Source: a virus
Direction: 5' to 3' (one strand)
DNA length: 28,880 nucleotides
Virus record (IMG/VR): IMGVR_UViG_3300028920_000216
Span: 1-28,880 of that record
In this document: positions 8,848 to 23,001 of the stretch, piece after piece
Numbering within the stretch: the first letter of the stretch is position 1
How the letters are laid out: every line of letters begins with the position of its first letter
Notes under the pieces: model-generated
What the model was told of the DNA's origin: nothing
The model's database searches: none
Seen by the model: only the letters and a program-made list of their open reading frames with translations
Program-made: the position numbers and the translations under genes

Positions 8848-9486
8848 TCAGGCGTTAAGCAACCGCTTTGTTGCCAACAGCCGATCAAGATTATCTTCGA
8901 GGATCTGGTTTGACATCTCCTCCTTTAGAGTGCCTTTGACCCTCTTCATGATTTCCTCCCCTTTCTCGACCTGTCTCTGGTAATACTTGAAGCGGGACTC
9001 TATGATATCCCTCCTGGGAAGTACCACCTTAAGACTCTTCAGGGATAGGGCTCTCTCTCTTGCTGGCTTGCTTCTGTTCTCGGCCAGGAACCAACCGAGA
9101 AAGGACAGGACTTCCTCGAACTTGGTGAGAGTCTTGTCCTTGTGGGAGACCAACTCCCTGGTGTCCTGCTCACAAAACGGCAGAACATTTGCCGCGAGCA
9201 GATGGCCGCTAGAACTGTGGACCTCAAACAAGCACATCATCTCTTTCGAGACCTCGTGTTTGTTCTTCTGAATTCTGATTGTAACAGGGAAGCGCTCCCC
9301 GTCCTTGATCTCAAGGCGATCACCCTTGCGATCTATGCTGCCATCCTCTTTGAGAGGGAACCGTGCAATCCTCATGGAAAGCTTTCCCTCACGATACAAG
9401 ACAAACGGCACTGTCCTGTTGAGGACCTTTTGAAGCGTAATTACATTATCACGCAGTGTTGAGAATGCATTCTCTATTAACATCAT
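8848..9486 (-). CDS. Hypothetical early protein
   Basis: 212 residues. AAGGAG precedes the double ATG at 9486/9483, and the second is equally possible. The N-terminal 120 residues look beta-rich (strands around VPFVLYREGKLSMRIARF and FPVTIRIQKN). A long basic helical region (residues 130-200) follows, with RERALSLKSLKVVLPRRDI. Base composition is richer in G+C than the genes further left. It is one of the first genes leftward of the non-coding array, and a strong terminator follows directly, so it is probably expressed as a separate short transcript. No family was recognised. Confidence 0.6.
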   Translation of the reverse strand: MMLIENAFSTLRDNVITLQKVLNRTVPFVLYREGKLSMRIARFPLKEDGSIDRKGDRLEIKDGERFPVTIRIQKNKHEVSKEMMCLFEVHSSSGHLLAANVLPFCEQDTRELVSHKDKTLTKFEEVLSFLGWFLAENRSKPARERALSLKSLKVVLPRRDIIESRFKYYQRQVEKGEEIMKRVKGTLKEEMSNQILEDNLDRLLATKRLLNA

Positions 9487-9551
9487 ATTCTCCTTGTCTT
9501 TGTGTTTGATTTTTTTTTAATATCCCAATCCTTTTACCTATGACCTAAAAC

Positions 9552-10124: not shown

Positions 10125-10288
10125 CGTAACGGATTTCATAGGGCCATTCTAAGTTCTCATATCTCTGTGCCCTTGAACTCATCTACCTGATGAGTTCGAG
10201 GCCACGTAGAAGGTAGGTGATGATTTAATGCAATATATGTGTATCACATATCCAGGCAATGGCGATTCCAAATGTATCAAACATCGAC

Positions 10289-10311
10289 GCCTTCAGGGGC
10301 AGCCTGAAGGC
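10289..10311. ncRNA. Array stem-loop
   Basis: GCCTTCAGG (10289-10297) pairs perfectly with CCTGAAGGC (10303-10311) around a 5-nt loop. It is the main stem of the unit between the first two 7-3-7 hairpins. Confidence 0.6.
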
Positions 10312-10392
10312 AAGTGAGTGTGATATTGTTTTACGGCAAAGCAGCTGTTAACAGATGCATATACGAAAGCCATGTCCTGATGTTATATTTGA

Positions 10393-10442
10393 GGCCTGAA
10401 GACTCTGGTCATCATGCAATGATGACCTCTCGCTTCAGGGCC
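10393..10442. ncRNA. Array two-helix hairpin
   Basis: Outer helix GGCCTGAAG (10393-10401) with CTTCAGGGCC (10433-10442, one bulged G). Symmetric 5-nt internal loop. Inner helix GGTCATCAT (10407-10415) with ATGATGACC (10419-10427) and a GCA triloop. Confidence 0.65.
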
Positions 10443-10522
10443 TACAAAGTATCGTGTTTGTTATGATTCTATCATGGATGTATCATCCATTGAGCGACAT
10501 TCAATATGAATACAATAATTAT

Positions 10523-10552
10523 CGCGGGCCATATCTTCCGATGTGGCCCGCG
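10523..10552. ncRNA. Array 13-bp hairpin
   Basis: CGCGGGCCATATC (10523-10535) pairs with GATGTGGCCCGCG (10540-10552). The one non-Watson-Crick pair is T-G on the + strand. The loop is TTCC on + and a GNRA-type GGAA on minus, so the strand cannot be decided from it. Confidence 0.65.
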
Positions 10553-10931
10553 TGTAAATATAATTAATGAGGCTTTTATACGTCCAAGATGTTTCATCTT
10601 GATAGACAATGTGCTCAAGTTTCTATGGTATAGGTGAGGGAGGGCACCTCCGTCCGCGTGTTGTTGTCAAACAACTGCGACGGGGAGCTCCTCCAAACAC
10701 TATCCCAGTGTTTTCTTTGCTGCCTTAACCCTGGAAAGTATCTTTCCAGTCTTTCCACATGCTATAATTATAATATGAACGGATCACAGCCGCACTTGAC
10801 CATGGTGACGACTCGCTCGTCCCCAGGGTCCAGGGCGTCTGGATCTCGTGGCATAAAGTGTTCCATACGTTATTTTTCATCCAGTATGTTACATACTGCA
10901 GAGCCATGTGATAAATCCTAAACTACATAGA

Positions 10932-10971
10932 AGTTCATCCTGAAGATTCGAAGACTCTTCGGGGTTGAACT
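10932..10971. ncRNA. Array nested hairpin
   Basis: AGTTCA (10932-10937) with TGAACT (10966-10971), an inner CC/GG, then GAAGA (10942-10946) with TCTTC (10956-10960). Confidence 0.5.
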
Positions 10972-11054
10972 ATGAAACTTGCTGTAGCTAACTTCAGGGG
11001 AAGAGCGTATCGCTCTTCATTGTCGATTTTTGAAATATCCAAATACTATCTTGT

Positions 11055-11126
11055 GACAACCCCCAAACGCTGAAGCTCGCACTCTCCTACCAGGAGAGGC
11101 TGAGCTGCATGGCGTGATGCGTTGTC
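11055..11126. ncRNA. Array multi-helix unit
   Basis: GACAAC (11055-11060) with GTTGTC (11121-11126) encloses AGCTC (11075-11079) with GAGCT (11102-11106). The terminal helix is CTCTCCT (11082-11088) with AGGAGAG (11092-11098) and an ACC triloop. The terminal helix is also 7 bp with a 3-nt loop. Confidence 0.6.
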
Positions 11127-11350
11127 TTATCAGGTACTTATGCAAATGCATGCGTATCGCATGCTTTGACGATATCCAAAGGCAAAGTATCCATGGAGCC
11201 CATGAGAGCAGACGTCGGAAACCATGTCACCGTCAGTAACATTCATTGATGTCATGGACCGATTATAGAGCGCCCAGATAGAATTATTGTTAATACATAT
11301 CGGCGGAAGCGTATCGCGTCCAATTACGATATCCAAATTATATATTCTGA

Positions 11351-11378
11351 GACCAGGATCCTAGAGAGGAACCTGGTC
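11351..11378. ncRNA. Array hairpin
   Basis: GACCAGG (11351-11357) with CCTGGTC (11372-11378), a single A-A mismatch, then TCCT (11359-11362) with AGGA (11367-11370) and an AGAG loop. Confidence 0.6.
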
Positions 11379-11460
11379 GGTGAGTGTATCTTGCTTTGTT
11401 TTTCTGTGAGGGCGTATCGCCCGCTAATGCGATATCCAATGGTGTGACATTATTATAAGA

Positions 11461-11502
11461 ACCAGCAGCAGGAGGTGCGTCCATGCAACTCCTGCTGCTG
11501 GT
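11461..11502. ncRNA. Array perfect 14-bp hairpin
   Basis: ACCAGCAGCAGGAG (11461-11474) pairs perfectly with CTCCTGCTGCTGGT (11489-11502) around a 14-nt loop. Confidence 0.7.
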
Positions 11503-11681
11503 AGTTTGTATCAGATGATTTATCGTCGCAATTGTATCAATTGCCGATTCGATATCCAAAGCTTATAGGGGTCCGAGATGCGTTGCAGCATGCGAAGCAT
11601 CATCAGCCACATATATAATCCATACTTATTGATTCTGTGCAGGTGTTTCTCCTGCAAGGGCGATATCCAAAACTTATAGCG

Positions 11682-11725
11682 TCACCACATCTGGGGCTAT
11701 CTTTTATGGCAGCGGATAGTGGTGA
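11682..11725. ncRNA. Array two-helix hairpin
   Basis: TCACCA (11682-11687) with TGGTGA (11720-11725), stacked on CTATC (11697-11701) with GATAG (11715-11719). A 9-nt bulge lies on one side. Confidence 0.5.
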
Positions 11726-11799
11726 TGTGTTGATATTTTCTTGTTTCTGTGTGAACGTAGCGCTCACGAGAGCGATATCCAAAGGTTACATTAAACCTG

Positions 11800-11858
11800 A
11801 GCTTCACACGGGTCTGTTGGCGAGCTAATAACAGCTCGCCACAGACAGTTGTGAAGCT
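11800..11858. ncRNA. Array long three-helix hairpin
   Basis: AGCTTCACA (11800-11808) with TGTGAAGCT (11850-11858), then GTCTGT (11812-11817) with ACAGAC (11841-11846), then GGCGAGCT (11819-11826) with AGCTCGCC (11833-11840). The loop is 6 nt. All 23 pairs are Watson-Crick with 3-nt internal asymmetries, one of the strongest structures in the window. Confidence 0.75.
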
Positions 11859-11939
11859 ACTAGTTGAGTTATAAACTTGCTGAGTTTCCTCGATCGGGAT
11901 GTATCATCCTGGTTGGCGATATTCTGTGCTAAAATTACT

Positions 11940-12011
11940 GGAAATCTGTCTCCCCCAGATTTCCGCGAGATCGTTAGGCAGAATCGTCAACGCGATTATG
12001 TGTTAACGATC
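11940..12011. ncRNA. Array unit with two hairpins
   Basis: GGAAATCTG (11940-11948) with CAGATTTCC (11956-11964). It is followed by GATCGTTA (11969-11976) with TAACGATC (12004-12011), enclosing an AATCG/CGATT helix. Confidence 0.65.
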
Positions 12012-12154
12012 CAAGATATTGTGTTGGGTTGTTAACGTAGAAAGCGTATCGCTTCCGTATACCACAAAAAAATATCTGCCATGCAAAGGTTATTATAAAT
12101 GCGAAACATATGAAATTTATGTGAGCATTTATGCTGCGCATCTTCGGTCTGCGT

Positions 12155-12191
12155 GATTATTCTTACTGCGAAGGATTCGCAGAGAATAATC
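12155..12191. ncRNA. Array two-helix hairpin
   Basis: GATTATTCT (12155-12163) with AGAATAATC (12183-12191) encloses CTGCGAA (12166-12172) with TTCGCAG (12176-12182) and a GGA triloop. Confidence 0.65.
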
Positions 12192-12295
12192 TTCGCAGCT
12201 CCCGTGAGATCGCAAGGTATTGTGTTTATTTTTTAGCTATCGGGAATGTACCATCCCCTTGAACCATGATAGATATCTTGTTATGCAAAGATTAC

Positions 12296-12342
12296 CGCAG
12301 ACAACAGTCTGCGTGAAAACCTTCATTAATACGTATTAATGA
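12296..12342. ncRNA. Array hairpin and 20-bp perfect palindrome
   Basis: CGCAGAC (12296-12302) with GTCTGCG (12307-12313). Then the perfect palindrome TCATTAATACGTATTAATGA (12323-12342), flanked by TGAAAAC/GTTTTCA. A related TCATTAA...TTAATGA pairing recurs at about 12363-12389. Confidence 0.6.
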
Positions 12343-12486
12343 CATGTTTTCATAGAAAACTGTCATTAACTACACGCTTGTATTAATGATAGCGTTTTCA
12401 AGGAATTGTATATATTTCTTTCCATCGAGAGAGTAACTCTCTCATTGACCATAAAGATATCTTATTCTACAATGAATTAAAGGGAG

Positions 12487-12510
12487 AATCCCAGAGCGAT
12501 CTCTGGGATT
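12487..12510. ncRNA. Array 10-bp hairpin
   Basis: AATCCCAGAG (12487-12496) pairs perfectly with CTCTGGGATT (12501-12510) around CGAT, flanked by a further GGAGA/TCTCC pairing. Confidence 0.65.
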
Positions 12511-12614
12511 GCAGTCTCCATTTTCGGTTCGATTATTGTGTTTCCTATTCGACATAGTATGCGTATCGCATACAGATACATATCTTCTGGCATCTGAATC
12601 TGGTAACATTGGAG

Positions 12615-12636
12615 CCGCCGCGTATACACGCGGCGG
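12615..12636. ncRNA. Array GC-rich hairpin
   Basis: CCGCCGCG (12615-12622) with CGCGGCGG (12629-12636) around TATACA, inside a TGGA/TCCA and GCATC/GATGC frame. Confidence 0.65.
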
Positions 12637-12882
12637 AAATCCATGTGTATTCTTTGATGCTTAAGCGTCATCAGCGTATCGCTGATAGAGCATGCCTTGT
12701 ATCTTGTCTTACATCGTTTTCAGAATGGTCCCCGTTCTCCATTGGAATGAACGGCAGACCTGATCTGATGCTGTGTTGTGGTAATTGTTGCTACGCACAG
12801 ATGTATCATCTGCATTATCATACAAAGGCAATTATCCATATGTTACAAGAGAGCGGCTTGTGCCCCTTGCAGTGAGCGTGGA

Positions 12883-12899
12883 GTTATTCCCCGAATAAC
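12883..12899. ncRNA. Array 7-bp hairpin, CCC loop
   Basis: GTTATTC (12883-12889) with GAATAAC (12893-12899) and a CCC triloop. It lies within a larger GTGCCC/GGGCAC and GCAGT/ACTGC frame. Confidence 0.55.
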
Positions 12900-13004
12900 C
12901 CAATAGCGAACTGCCCCTGGGCACTTATGTCCTCTGAAGTGGATTAACTTTTTATCCTATTGAAGTGTATCACTTCATAAAGCGATAAATATGCCTACAT
13001 CATA

Positions 13005-13013
13005 ATTATACCA
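13005..13013 (-). promoter_or_regulatory. Leftward extended -10 promoter entering the array
   Basis: On the minus strand TGG-TATAAT (13013-13005) is a perfect -10 with TG extension. The -35 region is poor (GTTAAA at about 17 bp). Transcription would run leftward through all 20 hairpins. Confidence 0.55.
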
Positions 13014-13051
13014 GAAATAAGTTTATTTTTAACGTAAAACAAAATTTAGAC

Positions 13052-13079
13052 TTGACAATAACTGAGAGCACTATATAAT
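13052..13079 (+). promoter_or_regulatory. Promoter of the rightward virion operon
   Basis: TTGACA (13052-13057), 16 bp, TATAAT (13074-13079): both hexamers are perfect consensus. The start lies near 13086, about 33 bases before ATG 13119. Confidence 0.9.
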
Positions 13080-13118
13080 TGAATTAAATCTTATTCCTTA
13101 CCATGGGAGGAACTAAAT

Positions 13119-14084
13119 ATGCCAAACGTGAATCCCCAGTTATTTGGCGAGTGGGGTAAAACGGCTTCCACGTCATATCTTACGTCTGGCTCATCTCTTA
13201 ACTCGGAAATCGCTAAGATTGCAGTTGAGAATGATCTGAACCCAGCGCAAATAAAAAGGGTGTGTGAAAACGCCAACCTTACAACATACAAATCTTTATT
13301 CTTCAATTCAAGGGACAAAGCCCTTGATTTTGACATTGCCACTCCTGAGAAAGTAGCACAGGAAATCGGAGCCGTTGAGACAGAACCCACGAGCATGGAC
13401 TACCTCACTCAGCCAAACATTAAGAAAGAAGCCAACCTTAAGAAAGTCGAGAAGATCTTCGGGCAGATCCCTGAAGATGCTGATGACACTCAAGAGAAGG
13501 TTAAGGTTGCCTCGAAATTCAACAGGCAATTGTCTGCAGCCGAAAAGGAAATGAACAGTAGGCTGTATCTTGCAACAATGAAGAAAGAGGCATCTGAGAA
13601 AAGGCTTTACAATATAATGAAGCAGATGGTTATGGGTGGCCATGACTTCAAGAAACTTGCCGCAGTCGTTGTTGATCAGGCACCAAAGGTTGATCTAAGA
13701 GACACTATGGTAAGAGCTTATACAAAGATGAGAGACGAAGGAGTCCTCGGTGTTAGAGAGAAAGTAGCCGTGGAAATGCCGAATGATATTATCCAGACCG
13801 CGATCGAAGCTGACCAGGCAAAGGCTAAAAAAAATGGGGCCCCAGAAACAGTAAACAGTAATCATCCCCTCGTACAAGAGGTTAATACTCTTCAGGAAAG
13901 CCTAATAAGCGAAGACAACACCAGAAAAGGTATTTGGCTGTTAAAGGATACGGCCAATGTTGTGAAGGGTAAGATAGAAAATCTTAATTCCTCTGAGAAA
14001 AGGGATAAAGCCGTCAAGGAGATAACAGGAGAAGATGACTCCAAAACAGAAGCTTATGAAGTCTTTACTCACCAGCCAGGATGA
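13119..14084 (+). CDS. Virion-operon protein with LFGEWGKTA motif
   Basis: 321 residues starting MPNVNPQLFGEWGKTAS, after GGGAGGA. This is the first gene of the late operon. The N-terminal motif (hydrophobic-F-x-E-W-x-K-T-A) is related to short motifs in several other small proteins of this operon. The remainder is charged and largely helical (NDLNPAQIKRVCENANL and a long Lys/Glu-rich centre), with no enzyme motif. A minor virion or assembly protein is likely from position only. Confidence 0.6.
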   Translation: MPNVNPQLFGEWGKTASTSYLTSGSSLNSEIAKIAVENDLNPAQIKRVCENANLTTYKSLFFNSRDKALDFDIATPEKVAQEIGAVETEPTSMDYLTQPNIKKEANLKKVEKIFGQIPEDADDTQEKVKVASKFNRQLSAAEKEMNSRLYLATMKKEASEKRLYNIMKQMVMGGHDFKKLAAVVVDQAPKVDLRDTMVRAYTKMRDEGVLGVREKVAVEMPNDIIQTAIEADQAKAKKNGAPETVNSNHPLVQEVNTLQESLISEDNTRKGIWLLKDTANVVKGKIENLNSSEKRDKAVKEITGEDDSKTEAYEVFTHQPG

Positions 14085-15541: not shown

Positions 15542-17245
15542 ATGTATAAAATAATAGAACCACAGCAATCTCTCATTGAAGCAGAACCGATCGTTTCCGT
15601 TATTGATCTTCACGAAGACTTTCTGACAAAACACGCTTCGGCTGATTCAGAGATCGCAAAGTATGCCAAGAGTCTGAAACCAAGGGAAGATGGTATCTAC
15701 CTTCATATCAATGCTTTAGGTGGTGAAAACTGGGGCAGTAATGCAAATGGAGATTATTTCGAGAGTGAAGTTCTTGCTCACGAATGCCCGATGGATGGCG
15801 AAACACCAAGAATGGAAGACTATGGCTTTAAAACTTTTGAGAAATATGCATATCCGTACAAACATCACGTCAACAAAGACCCAGAGAAATCAGTAGGAGA
15901 GCGCGTAAAGTTCGCATCATACAATCCGAAGGTTGATCGGGTTGAGTTGATAGTATTCGTAGACAGAAATAAGGATCCAGAGCTCTGCAAGAAAGCGGAG
16001 GTCGGAGAAGCCATACCTGTCAGCATGGGAACAAAAGTTCTTTATGACGTTTGTTCTATATGCGGAAATGCTGCAAAGAAAACGGTTGATTACTGCGAAC
16101 ATCTTAAATATGCGATGAACAAAACTCTCGGGGACGGCAGGAAAGTCTACGCTATGAATAAGTATCCCCGTTTCTTTGACATATCTTTTGTTCTCGTGCC
16201 TGCAGAAAAAGCTTCTTACGTTATGAATAAAGTCGCAAGCGCCAGAAGCTCTCAAATAGTTGTGCCTTCAGCATTTATAGCTGAGGCTTTGAAGATTGAA
16301 GAACCAAAGCGGGCTGAAGATAAGTCTGCTGAAATAAAGAAAGAAATACCGATTACCGAGGTGCAAACCGAACAGCCAGGAAGGGATGTTATAAAGTCTT
16401 TCTCGTCTCTCGTCCCCAAGGTCACATCTTTAGAACCCTCTCTTTCAGAGGGCACGATGGAGGAATTAGCTGATTTCCCGCTAAGCGACATTCTTTCTAC
16501 TGCCACAGGAATGGGTATGGTTCTTAAGCCTGGCGAGTTCACTCGAATCGTAGTCATAAAGGGTGCGAAGCCTGCTGAAAAGCCTGCTGAGCAGCCTGAG
16601 ATCTCGCCAGATGCCATTAACACAAAGGTGGCATCGATCCTTAAAGACTACGTAGTAGATAGGAGCTCGTTCAGACCAGCACTTCGTGCAAGACTGGTAA
16701 AGTTAGCGAACCAAGGTCCTGTAACAATAGATGAGACTCTCCAGCAGGACGTGGTTTCGAAAGGTCTGCCATCTGCCGCTGCTTTAACAGCATTGTACGA
16801 TATGTATAGGTCTAAGGTGAATAAGATGCCTGGCGGATACCTCACTCAAGCTCTCGAACGCAAGCCTTTGCTTGGTATTATACTCGGGGCGATCGCTGCT
16901 GCAGGACTTGGTTTAAGCCAGTCCCTGGAGAAAACTGCGAAGCTCGGACGTGCAGGTAAGGCCGCTGTGGTCGGGTCATTGGCATATCCATACTTTGTCA
17001 AGGCTCATAAGGAGCAAGAGTACTTTAAGAAAGGTAAACCGCCTGGAGACATAGGAAAGCTTTTTATCAAACATCCTGGATTGATTGGCTTAGCTTCCCT
17101 TTATCCTACGCTTAAAGTAATGCGTAAGTTTGCATCCGTATCTGATGTGGTCAGGCAAAACAAGGTTCTTACCTGGCCGTTGGTAGAGGATGCCCCTGTC
17201 GATATGGTTGACAGGGCAATTGTTAATGGTTTTGTGAATTTGTAA
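15542..17245 (+). CDS. Prohead maturation protease-like protein with long C-terminal extension
   Basis: 567 residues. Residues 1-235 match the layout of phage head-maturation proteases: KHHVNKDPEKSVGERVKFA (HH 108-109), SMGTKV (S161), a zinc-type site CSICGN...YCEHLK (C171, C174, C185, H187), then FFDISFVLVPAE. By family analogy His and Ser are candidate catalytic residues. The remaining about 330 residues include scaffold-like charged segments, a Gly/Ala-rich stretch (LLGIILGAIAAAGLGLSQSL) and EKTAKLG. A protease-scaffold fusion is the likeliest reading, with the protease processing capsid proteins during maturation. It lies upstream of the capsid genes as expected. Confidence 0.7.
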   Translation: MYKIIEPQQSLIEAEPIVSVIDLHEDFLTKHASADSEIAKYAKSLKPREDGIYLHINALGGENWGSNANGDYFESEVLAHECPMDGETPRMEDYGFKTFEKYAYPYKHHVNKDPEKSVGERVKFASYNPKVDRVELIVFVDRNKDPELCKKAEVGEAIPVSMGTKVLYDVCSICGNAAKKTVDYCEHLKYAMNKTLGDGRKVYAMNKYPRFFDISFVLVPAEKASYVMNKVASARSSQIVVPSAFIAEALKIEEPKRAEDKSAEIKKEIPITEVQTEQPGRDVIKSFSSLVPKVTSLEPSLSEGTMEELADFPLSDILSTATGMGMVLKPGEFTRIVVIKGAKPAEKPAEQPEISPDAINTKVASILKDYVVDRSSFRPALRARLVKLANQGPVTIDETLQQDVVSKGLPSAAALTALYDMYRSKVNKMPGGYLTQALERKPLLGIILGAIAAAGLGLSQSLEKTAKLGRAGKAAVVGSLAYPYFVKAHKEQEYFKKGKPPGDIGKLFIKHPGLIGLASLYPTLKVMRKFASVSDVVRQNKVLTWPLVEDAPVDMVDRAIVNGFVNL

Positions 17246-17256
17246 GGAGGCCAATA

Positions 17257-17889
17257 ATGGCTGGTAACACTATTGATGAAATTTTTGCTGCTCTTATCAA
17301 TGAAGGCGAAGAAGTTAAGACTGCTGGCGAAGAAGTAAAACCCGAAGAAGAGGCCAAGGTTGAAGGTGAGAAGAAGCCCGAAGCTGAAAAAGTTGCTGCT
17401 CTGGCAGAGATTCTTCCTGAAGAAGCCCTCAACGTTCTTCGCGAATACGTGAAAGAGGCAGAAGAGGAAGAGAAGAAGGCCGAACAGGTCAAAGAAGCTG
17501 AAGAAGCAATTGCTACAGGTCGTTTTATGGCTCGTGGTTTCGTTGCTGAACTCCAGAAACTCGGTGCCGACTATGGCGAACCCATGGAAGTTGCTGATTT
17601 CTCTGACAAGGCTGTCATTCAGGGTGCCGCTGATGTTCCGACACCTGCAACCAGCAATATTGTTCAGGATGGTTCCACTGCTCTGACCCAGGCAAAGAAA
17701 GAAGATGCTCAGAAGTCTCCTGTCAGCCCGACCGCACGTCAGGACGTGGTTAAGGCTGTGAAGAAGATTATCAGTGCTGCTGACGTAGCATCCAAGGGTC
17801 AGGATCCGCAGGAAGTTCCGAATAACCTGGGCGTTAAAGAAACCGCAACAAGTGGCAACAAATCAAGCCAGCCCAATAACGTTGCGTAA
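17257..17889 (+). CDS. Acidic scaffold-like virion protein
   Basis: 210 residues starting MAGNTIDEIFAALINEGEEV after AAGGAGG. The first 90 residues are strongly acidic and helical (Glu/Lys/Ala-rich). Then comes MARGFVAELQKLGADYGE and FSDKAVIQGA, and a polar C-terminus. The next gene repeats the same order (acidic part, MARSFLDEIEKEAG, YSEKAVIAS), so the two are paralogues. Composition and position suggest a scaffolding or internal head protein. Confidence 0.6.
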   Translation: MAGNTIDEIFAALINEGEEVKTAGEEVKPEEEAKVEGEKKPEAEKVAALAEILPEEALNVLREYVKEAEEEEKKAEQVKEAEEAIATGRFMARGFVAELQKLGADYGEPMEVADFSDKAVIQGAADVPTPATSNIVQDGSTALTQAKKEDAQKSPVSPTARQDVVKAVKKIISAADVASKGQDPQEVPNNLGVKETATSGNKSSQPNNVA

Positions 17890-17932: not shown

Positions 17933-18522
17933 ATGAGTCTCGCAGAACTTTATAACGAGATGTACAATTCCGAAGAGCCTGAGAAGGTTGCTGAAGAAAC
18001 AAAAGTAGCAGAAGCTGAAAAGCTTGCAAGTGTCATTGAAGACCTGAGCGACGAAGATGCAGAAAAGCTGGCAGAAGCATGTGACCTGCTTGACCATAAT
18101 GGTTATCAGTTCGAAGATGCTGAAACCAAGCTCGCTGCAGCTGCTGAGGTTGTTGATGGTGTTGAAAATGGAACCATCGAGATTGAAGAAGATGAAGATG
18201 ATTCCGAAAAAACCGCAGCAGAATTTGACGCTGCTGGCCGTATCATGGCTCGCTCATTTCTCGATGAAATCGAGAAGGAAGCTGGCGATCAAAAAAAAAT
18301 TACTCTGAAAAGGCCGTAATAGCCTCTAAGGGTGGTTCTGTCTTGAAGAAGGTCCTTTCTTTACTGAAACCTTCTGGAGTAAAGGCAGATGTTAAAGCCC
18401 TGCTTAAGACGCAGGGGTTAACTTCAGCTAAGGCCAAGAAAGAAGCCCTCAAACGGTTAGGCATTCGTGCTGGAATCGGTGCTGGTGGGGCAGCCACAGC
18501 TGGATATGTTGCAGGAAAATAA
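17933..18522 (+). CDS. Paralogue of 17257-17889, probably completed by -1 frameshift
   Basis: From ATG 17933 (AGGAG seven bases upstream) the zero frame stops at 18319 after 128 residues ending DQKKITLKRP. A -1 shift at the A run 18291-18299 (A-AAA-AAA, 18292-18298) continues to 18522, giving about 196 residues. The added part begins NYSEKAVIASKGGS, aligning with FSDKAVIQGA of the upstream paralogue. It ends in a Gly/Ala-rich tail (GIGAGGAATAGYVAGK) like that of the next gene. Purine-rich GAAGGAAG lies about 10 bases before the slip site, as in dnaX-type stimulators. A homopolymer sequencing error is the alternative. Confidence 0.7.
18291..18299 (+). other. Slippery A9 tract, candidate frameshift site
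   Basis: Nine consecutive A. In the zero frame the tract reads CAA-AAA-AAA-ATT, giving a perfect A-AAA-AAA heptamer for tandem -1 slippage or a substrate for polymerase slippage. It is used to explain the fusion 17933-18522. Confidence 0.6.
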
Positions 18523-18578: not shown

Positions 18579-18836
18579 ATGGCAGGCAAAGCACGTACAT
18601 TAGGTCGCGTCTTGAAGCTGGGATTACCAGCTCTTGGACTTGGTGCTGGTGGTGCTGCCGCTGGTTACTCCGTGGCTGAAGGAAAAGGAAAAGAAAAACT
18701 CAGAAACCTTGGAGCAAAAGCCACAAACGTAATCAAAGGTCAGCAGAGGCTTATTATGACTCTGGCCAGGCAGAATCAGGCCCTGGCAAGTGCCTACAGG
18801 AGACGGGTTGCTTCTAGCAAATCTGGAGGAAAATAA
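18579..18836 (+). CDS. Small Gly/Ala-rich protein
   Basis: 85 residues starting MAGKARTLGRVLKLGLPALG, after AAGGAGG. LGLGAGGAAAGYSVAEGKG is nearly the same as the frameshifted tail of the preceding gene (GIGAGGAATAGYVAGK). It could be a duplicated C-terminal domain now expressed alone. The basic C-terminus contains a long helix. Likely a minor virion component, function unknown. Confidence 0.6.
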   Translation: MAGKARTLGRVLKLGLPALGLGAGGAAAGYSVAEGKGKEKLRNLGAKATNVIKGQQRLIMTLARQNQALASAYRRRVASSKSGGK

Positions 18837-20043: not shown

Positions 20044-20928
20044 ATGGAACAAGCTGCTATTCTGAATGATCTCTTCGCTTCTGCGCTCAGCAATCCAGAA
20101 GAGAAGGAAAAACTCGCTGAAGCTGGCGGTGCCTTTGTGCGCCAGAAGCTGCGCGAACTGTCTTTCGCAAGACGGATTGTCCCCCCTGTCATGGTAACAA
20201 AAGACGACTGTCAGCGTTCTGAAGATCACGACGGTCTCGTCAAAGTTATCGACAAAGAACCTGATAGCTCTGCTATGGCTATTAGTTTCAGAGGCAAGCC
20301 CGAAGCGAAGTATATTGAAGGCGAACGCTATACGGTTAAATTCTTTACCGTGAGCTCCGAACGCTTTCAGAAAACAGAACAGGAACTTCTGTCCTATGAA
20401 ATGCCGATCACCAAGGTTATCGAAGAGAACTCGGTGAAAGACATTCAGAAGATCGAAGACTCCCGTTTCAAAACCTGGATGGATTACGCGATCGCAGCCA
20501 GTAGCCTGACCCAGACCATTTCCGACACAACTGTCGAAAAGACTGGTATCGCCGCTCTGTCTCGCCTGATCTCCACCAAAGAACTTAAGCTGGATACCAT
20601 TCTCATGACCCAGCTGGACTTCAACGACATCCTTGCCTGGAATGCAAATTCCTTCGGTGACAAGGTTGCAAGTGAAGTTGTTGTTGATGGTTACAAGTAT
20701 GAAACCGTAATGGGTTACAAACTTGTCACAACCATTAAGAGCGACATCATTGATGAAGGTAAGTTCTACGGTTTCGCTGCTCCTCAGTTCCTGGGTAACT
20801 TCTTTATCCTCAACCAGACCAAGTTCTGGGTTGACAAAGAAGCCAACCTGATCAGTTTTCAGAGCTGGGAAGACGTTGCAATGGGTATCGGCAATGTTAA
20901 TGCAGTTGCCGAAATCGAACTGTCGTAG
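20044..20928 (+). CDS. Major capsid protein
   Basis: 294 residues after AAGGAGG. Blocks such as SFARRIVPPVMVTKDDCQRS, VKVIDKEPDS, FFTVSSERFQKTE and LSYEMPITKVIEENSVKDIQ match a family of phage major capsid proteins with the HK97 fold. Gene order (protease-like, scaffold-like, decoration-like, this gene, terminator, connector genes) and codon choice typical of a highly expressed gene agree. Where the maturation protease would cut is not clear. The N-terminal 35 residues are the helical candidate for removal. Confidence 0.85.
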   Translation: MEQAAILNDLFASALSNPEEKEKLAEAGGAFVRQKLRELSFARRIVPPVMVTKDDCQRSEDHDGLVKVIDKEPDSSAMAISFRGKPEAKYIEGERYTVKFFTVSSERFQKTEQELLSYEMPITKVIEENSVKDIQKIEDSRFKTWMDYAIAASSLTQTISDTTVEKTGIAALSRLISTKELKLDTILMTQLDFNDILAWNANSFGDKVASEVVVDGYKYETVMGYKLVTTIKSDIIDEGKFYGFAAPQFLGNFFILNQTKFWVDKEANLISFQSWEDVAMGIGNVNAVAEIELS

Positions 20929-22458: not shown

Positions 22459-23001
22459 ATGCCAGCAGAAAGTAAAAAACAACAGATGGCTGCAGGGATG
22501 GCTCTGGCGGCCAAAGAGGGAAAGATGGATCCTTCGGAGCTGAAGGGTGCGGCGAAGCAGATGTATGATTCAATGACTGTGGAACAGCTTAGAGAATATG
22601 CTCAGACGAAGCACACCAATCTTCCCGAAAAGAAGAAAGAGGCGTCCTTGATCATGCAGGGGTTTATGGAAGAGATTGACAAGCTCGGAGCAAACAGGCT
22701 TGGTCTCGCATGGAGGGCTTTAAGAGGAACTCTTAAGCCAAGCAGCGTTGCCAAATGGCATAAGGTAAAAAAACTTGGTGGCAAGCAGGCTTATGAAGGA
22801 TACATGAAGGGTATTGAGAAAATGAGAGGTATCGCTGCTAAGCGTGGAAAAGGAGCTGGAGGGGCTGCAGGAAGCGCTCTTGGATTTGCCAAAAAGCATC
22901 CTCTTACTACTGCTGCAGGTGGAGGAATTCTTGCTGGAGATTTGCTTGATCCAGTTCAGGGTAAAAATCGCAGGGGTGGCGGAACATATTATTTCGGATA
23001 A
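22459..23001 (+). CDS. DUF3008-like domain fused to motif and Gly/Ala-rich tail
   Basis: 180 residues after GGAGG. Residues 1-60 (SKKQQMAAGMALAAKEGK... MYDSMTVEQLREYAQTKH) match the small DUF3008-type domain that is a stand-alone protein in many phages and bacteria. Then come IMQGFMEEIDKLGANR (the operon's shared motif), a basic region, and KKHPLTTAAGGGILAGDLLD. It is a fusion of a widespread small domain to this phage's own virion-protein architecture. The role is unknown. Confidence 0.6.
   Translation: MPAESKKQQMAAGMALAAKEGKMDPSELKGAAKQMYDSMTVEQLREYAQTKHTNLPEKKKEASLIMQGFMEEIDKLGANRLGLAWRALRGTLKPSSVAKWHKVKKLGGKQAYEGYMKGIEKMRGIAAKRGKGAGGAAGSALGFAKKHPLTTAAGGGILAGDLLDPVQGKNRRGGGTYYFG

Follow-up and report, generated by a model that had tools for sequence, protein, structure and literature searches.

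In E. coli dnaX, −1 ribosomal frameshifting takes place at an A_AAA_AAG heptamer accompanied by a Shine-Dalgarno (SD) sequence and a stem-loop, and the spacing between the SD and the heptamer there is the basis for what we term a dnaX-like placement below. In Thermus thermophilus, dnaX is instead subject to transcriptional slippage at a run of nine A's, and nine A or T is also the length at which selection against slippage shows in a large proportion of bacterial genomes (PMC1088944). A run of 11 A's in Citrobacter rodentium tssM1 gives a short and a long form, both of which are required (PMC4256274). Among structural and assembly proteins, frameshifting extends the coat proteins encoded by T7 and T3 gene 10 and those of Lactobacillus phage A2 and Listeria phage PSA, while CsoS2, a shell-assembly protein of alpha-carboxysomes, comes in two lengths, short and long, through −1 frameshifting (PMC5009743). 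Beyond the known coat-protein cases, the literature, as judged by title and abstract, yielded no example of a phage scaffold gene with frameshifting or slippage.

The locus described here lies in a viral DNA stretch of 28,880 bases (the window), which is the whole of IMG/VR virus record IMGVR_UViG_3300028920_000216, and centers on a run of nine A's (A9, 18291–18299) at which a gene for a scaffold-like protein meets an open −1 frame. All features lie on the plus strand unless stated. Its likeness to E. coli dnaX consists of an in-frame A_AAA_AAA heptamer (18292–18298) and an SD-like AAGGA (18275–18279) 12 nt upstream; it differs in that the shift would yield the longer product and in that no convincing stem-loop stands at the right spacing. 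Like Thermus dnaX and tssM1, as described in those reports, it has a poly-A run within a gene, where extra A's would lead to short and long forms sharing an N-terminal part. In Thermus dnaX, however, the long form is the zero-frame product and slippage was measured, whereas the long form in the window would arise via the shift and is deduced from sequence (PMC1088944). The long form of tssM1 depends on slippage, on 11 A's compared with nine in the window (PMC4256274). The phage coat-protein cases are similar in that a head protein also occurs as a minor form with an extended C terminus, but there the protein is the coat and the extension Ig-like, while the window has a scaffold-like gene and a Gly/Ala-rich extension (PMC5009743). 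CsoS2 is likewise an assembly protein of two lengths produced through a −1 shift, although its long form is the zero-frame product and the protein is unrelated to that of the window (PMC5009743).

From 13.1 kb onward, the window contains a block of head and tail genes. By protease and head protein, its named relatives are Salmonella phage Arash, Vibrio phages D69, D148 and D181, and Bacillus phage G. The head modules of Arash, D69 and phage G contain a protease and a major head protein homologous to those of the window; in Arash and D69 the Gly/Ala-rich protein is a separate gene at the corresponding place, and no split gene was seen. In the window, the prohead (head maturation) protease is encoded at 15542–17245 (phrog_18299, E 6e-9) and the major head protein at 20044–20928 (phrog_2522, E 8e-19), and between them are two acidic genes sharing a motif, a small Gly/Ala-rich gene, and others. 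The slip-site gene is thus located between protease and head protein, an order kept in relatives. The prohead proteases of three related loci (L003:515-3379, L006:726-3617, L128:529-3360) contain an intein-like insert that matches LAGLIDADG endonucleases (PF14890, PF14528).

The first acidic gene, the upstream paralogue (17257–17889), encodes a scaffold-like protein of 210 aa that contains FSDKAVI. The second is the zero-frame ORF of the slip site (17933–18319), which has the SD TTAGGAGATTGATA before its ATG and encodes an acidic, scaffold-like short form of 128 aa. The shared motif reads MARGFVAELQKLG in the paralogue and MARSFLDEIEKEA (18245–18283) in the slip-site gene, is also common to the short and long forms of relatives, and is the region over which blastp aligns the paralogue with the short form (E 0.002). 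The third, tail-only gene (18579–18836) encodes 85 aa, Gly/Ala-rich, from its own ATG and SD. Against known scaffold families, the slip-site gene had no PHROGs match and sub-threshold Pfam matches only, and its product is called scaffold-like by position, acidity and resemblance only. Further along, a Gly/Ala-tailed protein with a GFMEEIDKLG motif (22459–23001) starts with a DUF3008 domain (PF11450, E 7e-20), which indicates a motif-plus-tail module joined to different N-terminal domains. Ahead of the block, positions 10200–13100 form a region of ∼3 kb with few ORFs and a weak coding signal; scans of the whole window, this region included, gave neither a tRNA nor an Rfam match.

A sequence-only reading of the window had proposed that a −1 shift at A9 fuses 128 residues to a 74-codon open frame, that NYSEKAVIAS after the junction matches FSDKAVIQGA at the same place in the paralogue, and that the product ends in a Gly/Ala-rich tail typical of the operon. 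The frame break itself is borne out: the −1 frame has 17 stops at 17953–18265 and is then open for 84 codons until 18520, while the zero frame ends six codons past A9 at tandem stops (TAA TAG). The extension (18298–18522) comprises 74 codons plus a stop, as had been read, whereas the fusion uses 122 residues of the first frame rather than 128, for a product of 196 aa. Its charge is −28 over the first 122 residues and +12 over the last 74, which begin NYSEKAVIAS and end in GIGAGGAATAGYVAGK. Off-frame segments free of stops reach 84 codons in 0 of 625 cases in the 22 plus-strand genes of the block. The 74 extension codons have a coding log-odds of 0.55 per codon, compared with a mean of 0.47 for in-frame windows, and none of 646 off-frame windows exceeds −0.04. 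In-frame A_AAA_AAR heptamers occur four times in 23 genes, the −1 frame thereafter being open for 2, 1, 74 and 7 codons, so only the one at A9 leads into a long −1 frame. The tail claim also holds, since 12 of the 16 residues at the end of the extension are G or A, the maximum in the block; six of the 23 listed genes reach at least 8. The paralogue match is real, its 7-residue score (YSEKAVI with FSDKAVI) being reached by 5 of 5000 shuffles and four of the five base differences over these seven codons falling at third positions of the −1 frame, but "the same place" is approximate: the distance to the EIEK/ELQK motif is 5 residues shorter for NYSEKAVI than for FSDKAVI in the paralogue. Taken together, the second frame very probably encodes the C-terminal portion of the protein that starts in the first gene.

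The extension could instead be a separate small gene of 59 aa, read without a shift from TTG 18343–18345, the only ATG, GTG or TTG in its frame. A weak SD-like TAAGGGTGG sits 7 nt before this TTG, and tail-only genes do exist, at 18579 and in three related loci (L003, L102, L103). On the other hand, ATG is the start codon in 21 of the 22 other listed genes, mostly behind clearer SDs, and the 22nd was listed with a start displaced by 3 bases from its ATG. The 15 codons leading up to the TTG also score 0.66 per codon in the −1 frame compared with −0.42 in the zero frame and include the match to the paralogue, which argues that the protein is read through the run and makes a separate TTG gene highly improbable.

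The junction carries the features of two kinds of slippage, and both fit. A run of at least nine A's sits where the frames meet, and one extra A in the RNA reaches the second frame, as transcriptional slippage would need; the same site is an X_XXY_YYZ heptamer in the zero frame, as a dnaX-like −1 ribosomal shift would need. An A9 is in itself unsurprising (P = 0.51 in codon-shuffled genes), but A or T runs of at least nine are rare among relatives, with 5 in 1.48 Mb of related loci, some of them overlapping, compared with 2 in the window. The second of these, at 9510–9518, is T9 on the plus strand and A9 on the minus strand, upstream of the minus-strand ORF 8848–9486. AAGGA is present in the corresponding span at 1.0% of 4728 codon positions, and any Shine-Dalgarno-like core at 5.2%. 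A hairpin predicted directly after the run (18300–18335) is weak evidence: it is not significant at short range (81 nt, z −0.67), while over 121 nt z is −2.58 and 4 of 200 shuffles are as stable, and at dnaX spacing none is convincing. Of what the sequence-only reading had put forward as a programmed −1 frameshift, the purine-rich stretch upstream of the slip site is thus confirmed as AAGGA, and the heptamer and SD-like element stand. Conservation does not support it, since an A run of at least 7 or an A_AAA_AAA was found in 0 of 15 homologues and the nearest relatives are without the extension. Its suggestion that homologues might show either a conserved slippery site or a continuous frame was answered by the latter, as one-frame long forms do occur among relatives.

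Relatives were fetched as 30 loci by head protein and 67 by protease, and as a further 40 by head protein with two-sequence alignment, partly overlapping the earlier 30. Forms were assigned by visual reading of filtered gene listings rather than with a blind classifier, with duplicate loci collapsed; two listings were filtered by motif and could miss forms, and 17 loci (10 + 7) were re-listed unfiltered and 6 more partly. The counts leave out loci with no recognised homologue (e.g. L111), and of the later 40-locus set 7 new loci were listed and most others uncounted. In a head-protein tree of 30 rows (the L015 row left out, its ORF not having been recovered), the window groups with L002/L003 (99/98), followed less surely (84/75) by the L040/L053/L055/L088 group. 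With the fused protein as blastp query, homologues were found in L102 (E 3e-21), L103, and L003 (E 1e-15). In these nearest loci (L002/L003, L102, L103) the short form stands alone, with no extension; in L003, L102 and L103 a tail-only gene, syntenic with 18579–18836, comes directly after the short form. Compared with them, the window has an extra ∼200 nt before its tail-only gene, and this is the second frame.

Across the relatives, the tail is part of one continuous frame, forms a gene of its own, or is missing. A short form alone is present in L004, L008, L026, L048, L065, L091 and L129 as well as in the nearest loci; the short forms of L026, L043, L048, L065, L078 and L091 stop soon after the motif, and in L026, L048, L065 and L091 they do so within about a dozen residues of it, the position of the A run in the window. 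A one-frame long form with basic part and Gly/Ala tail is found in L017, L018, L022, L024, L028 and L128, and one that continues into a further C-terminal region in L040, L053, L055, L056, L069 and L088. The long protein of L128 (GRIMARAFLDELDKEAG... GGTLAAGTAGGYAAGK) strikingly resembles the fused protein of the window (GRIMARSFLDEIEKEAG... ending as given above), with 50% identity over 48 residues of the motif region (blastp, E 4e-9). A tblastn search of 99 records with the extension matched nothing other than the window and its copy, L001, so the tail sequence is not conserved even where the kind of tail is.

Six distinct loci have neighboring short and long genes, in an order that varies among them. 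By blastp, the two members resemble each other in L128 (E 2e-31), L078 (4e-12), L022 (3e-8), L018 (6e-8) and L028 (2e-4), the best pair being that of L128, where proteins of 179 aa and 94 aa are 56% identical over 93 residues. The sixth pair, in L016, was judged by reading and not by blastp, and a single in-frame TGA falls within its long member. In-frame TGA is also present in several further genes of this contig (IMGVR_UViG_3300007512_000217, L016 / L049), which suggests that this phage probably reads TGA as Trp. L043 has a short form and a separate tail gene with no mutual similarity at E 0.01, and was not counted as a pair; in L023 both genes are short and no tail is present. No short partner was seen for the long forms of L017, L024 and the L040 group, so a pair is not required in all relatives. 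Its occurrence in six loci nevertheless makes it biologically plausible that the window's phage makes both products.

That relatives have long forms in one frame also opens the way to a one-base indel in the A run, which, natural and artefactual cases taken together, we place a little short of an even chance. In the artefactual case, sequencing or assembly has misjudged the run, and what looks split is an ordinary long form encoded in one frame. The run is a homopolymer known from a single contig: a DNA search found 0 near-identical contigs spanning the junction. Protein searches with either half of the protein confirmed no relatives, a DNA search of a phage collection gave no match, and a search for the major head protein among genome contigs confirmed none. 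Yet none of the 22 neighboring genes has a within-gene frame break, including the gene with an A8 run at 13827, and a genome with the long form only would be unlike the nearest loci; we regard such an error as decidedly unlikely. A poor assembly with many frame breaks was rejected, since no other break falls inside a gene of the 13.1–28.9 kb block; outside the block the frame-break scan is noisy, the codon model being untrained there. Were the run length wrong, the lesson would be a smaller one, an ordinary long form with a one-base error.

In the natural case, A9 is real but a recent or variable one-base change, the ancestral gene (and that of sister genomes) being a one-frame long form, so that this genome would make the short form and a leaky long form with no selected ratio. 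Homopolymer runs are easily mutated (PMC1088944), the extension is still fully coding-like, as a recent break predicts, and the slip site is not shared by the 15 homologues. The short forms of the nearest relatives, however, make the short form a natural product in its own right, and AAGGA has its dnaX-like position; we consider a recent change rather unlikely.

We give about an even chance to the reading in which slippage on A9 lets the phage make and use both products. In this model, most products would stop six codons past the run, as the acidic 128-aa form, while slippage would give the 196-aa form, in which that acidic part and motif are joined to a basic, Gly/Ala-rich tail. The extra A could be inserted by RNA polymerase, or the ribosome could move back one base on A_AAA_AAA, with its dnaX-like upstream context. 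If the phage has its own RNA polymerase, slippage would depend on that enzyme, and in Arash the virions do contain RNA polymerase subunits (PMC10585845). The short form may be the bulk internal scaffold or core protein, and the long form may co-assemble with it via the shared part and bring the tail into the prohead. We infer the occurrence, level and type of slippage, and the roles of both forms, from these comparisons. Arash virions were found to contain Gp222-Gp226, the Gly/Ala-rich Gp224 among them (PMC10585845, Table 2), which makes a virion role for tail-bearing proteins plausible.

One gene here would then do the work of two neighboring paralogues in relatives. More broadly, and tentatively, short and Gly/Ala-tailed long scaffold-like forms may be a functional pair in the lineage related to Arash and phage G, supplied either by neighboring paralogues or by programmed slippage on A9, a generalization we find possible rather than probable. 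If true, a head-assembly scaffold-like gene would be added to the few phage structural genes that are read in two frames, and slippage would set the ratio of plain to tail-bearing scaffold in the head of a dsDNA phage. The same pair, supplied by neighboring genes in relatives and by slippage in the window, would then offer a natural comparison through which the required ratio could be measured.
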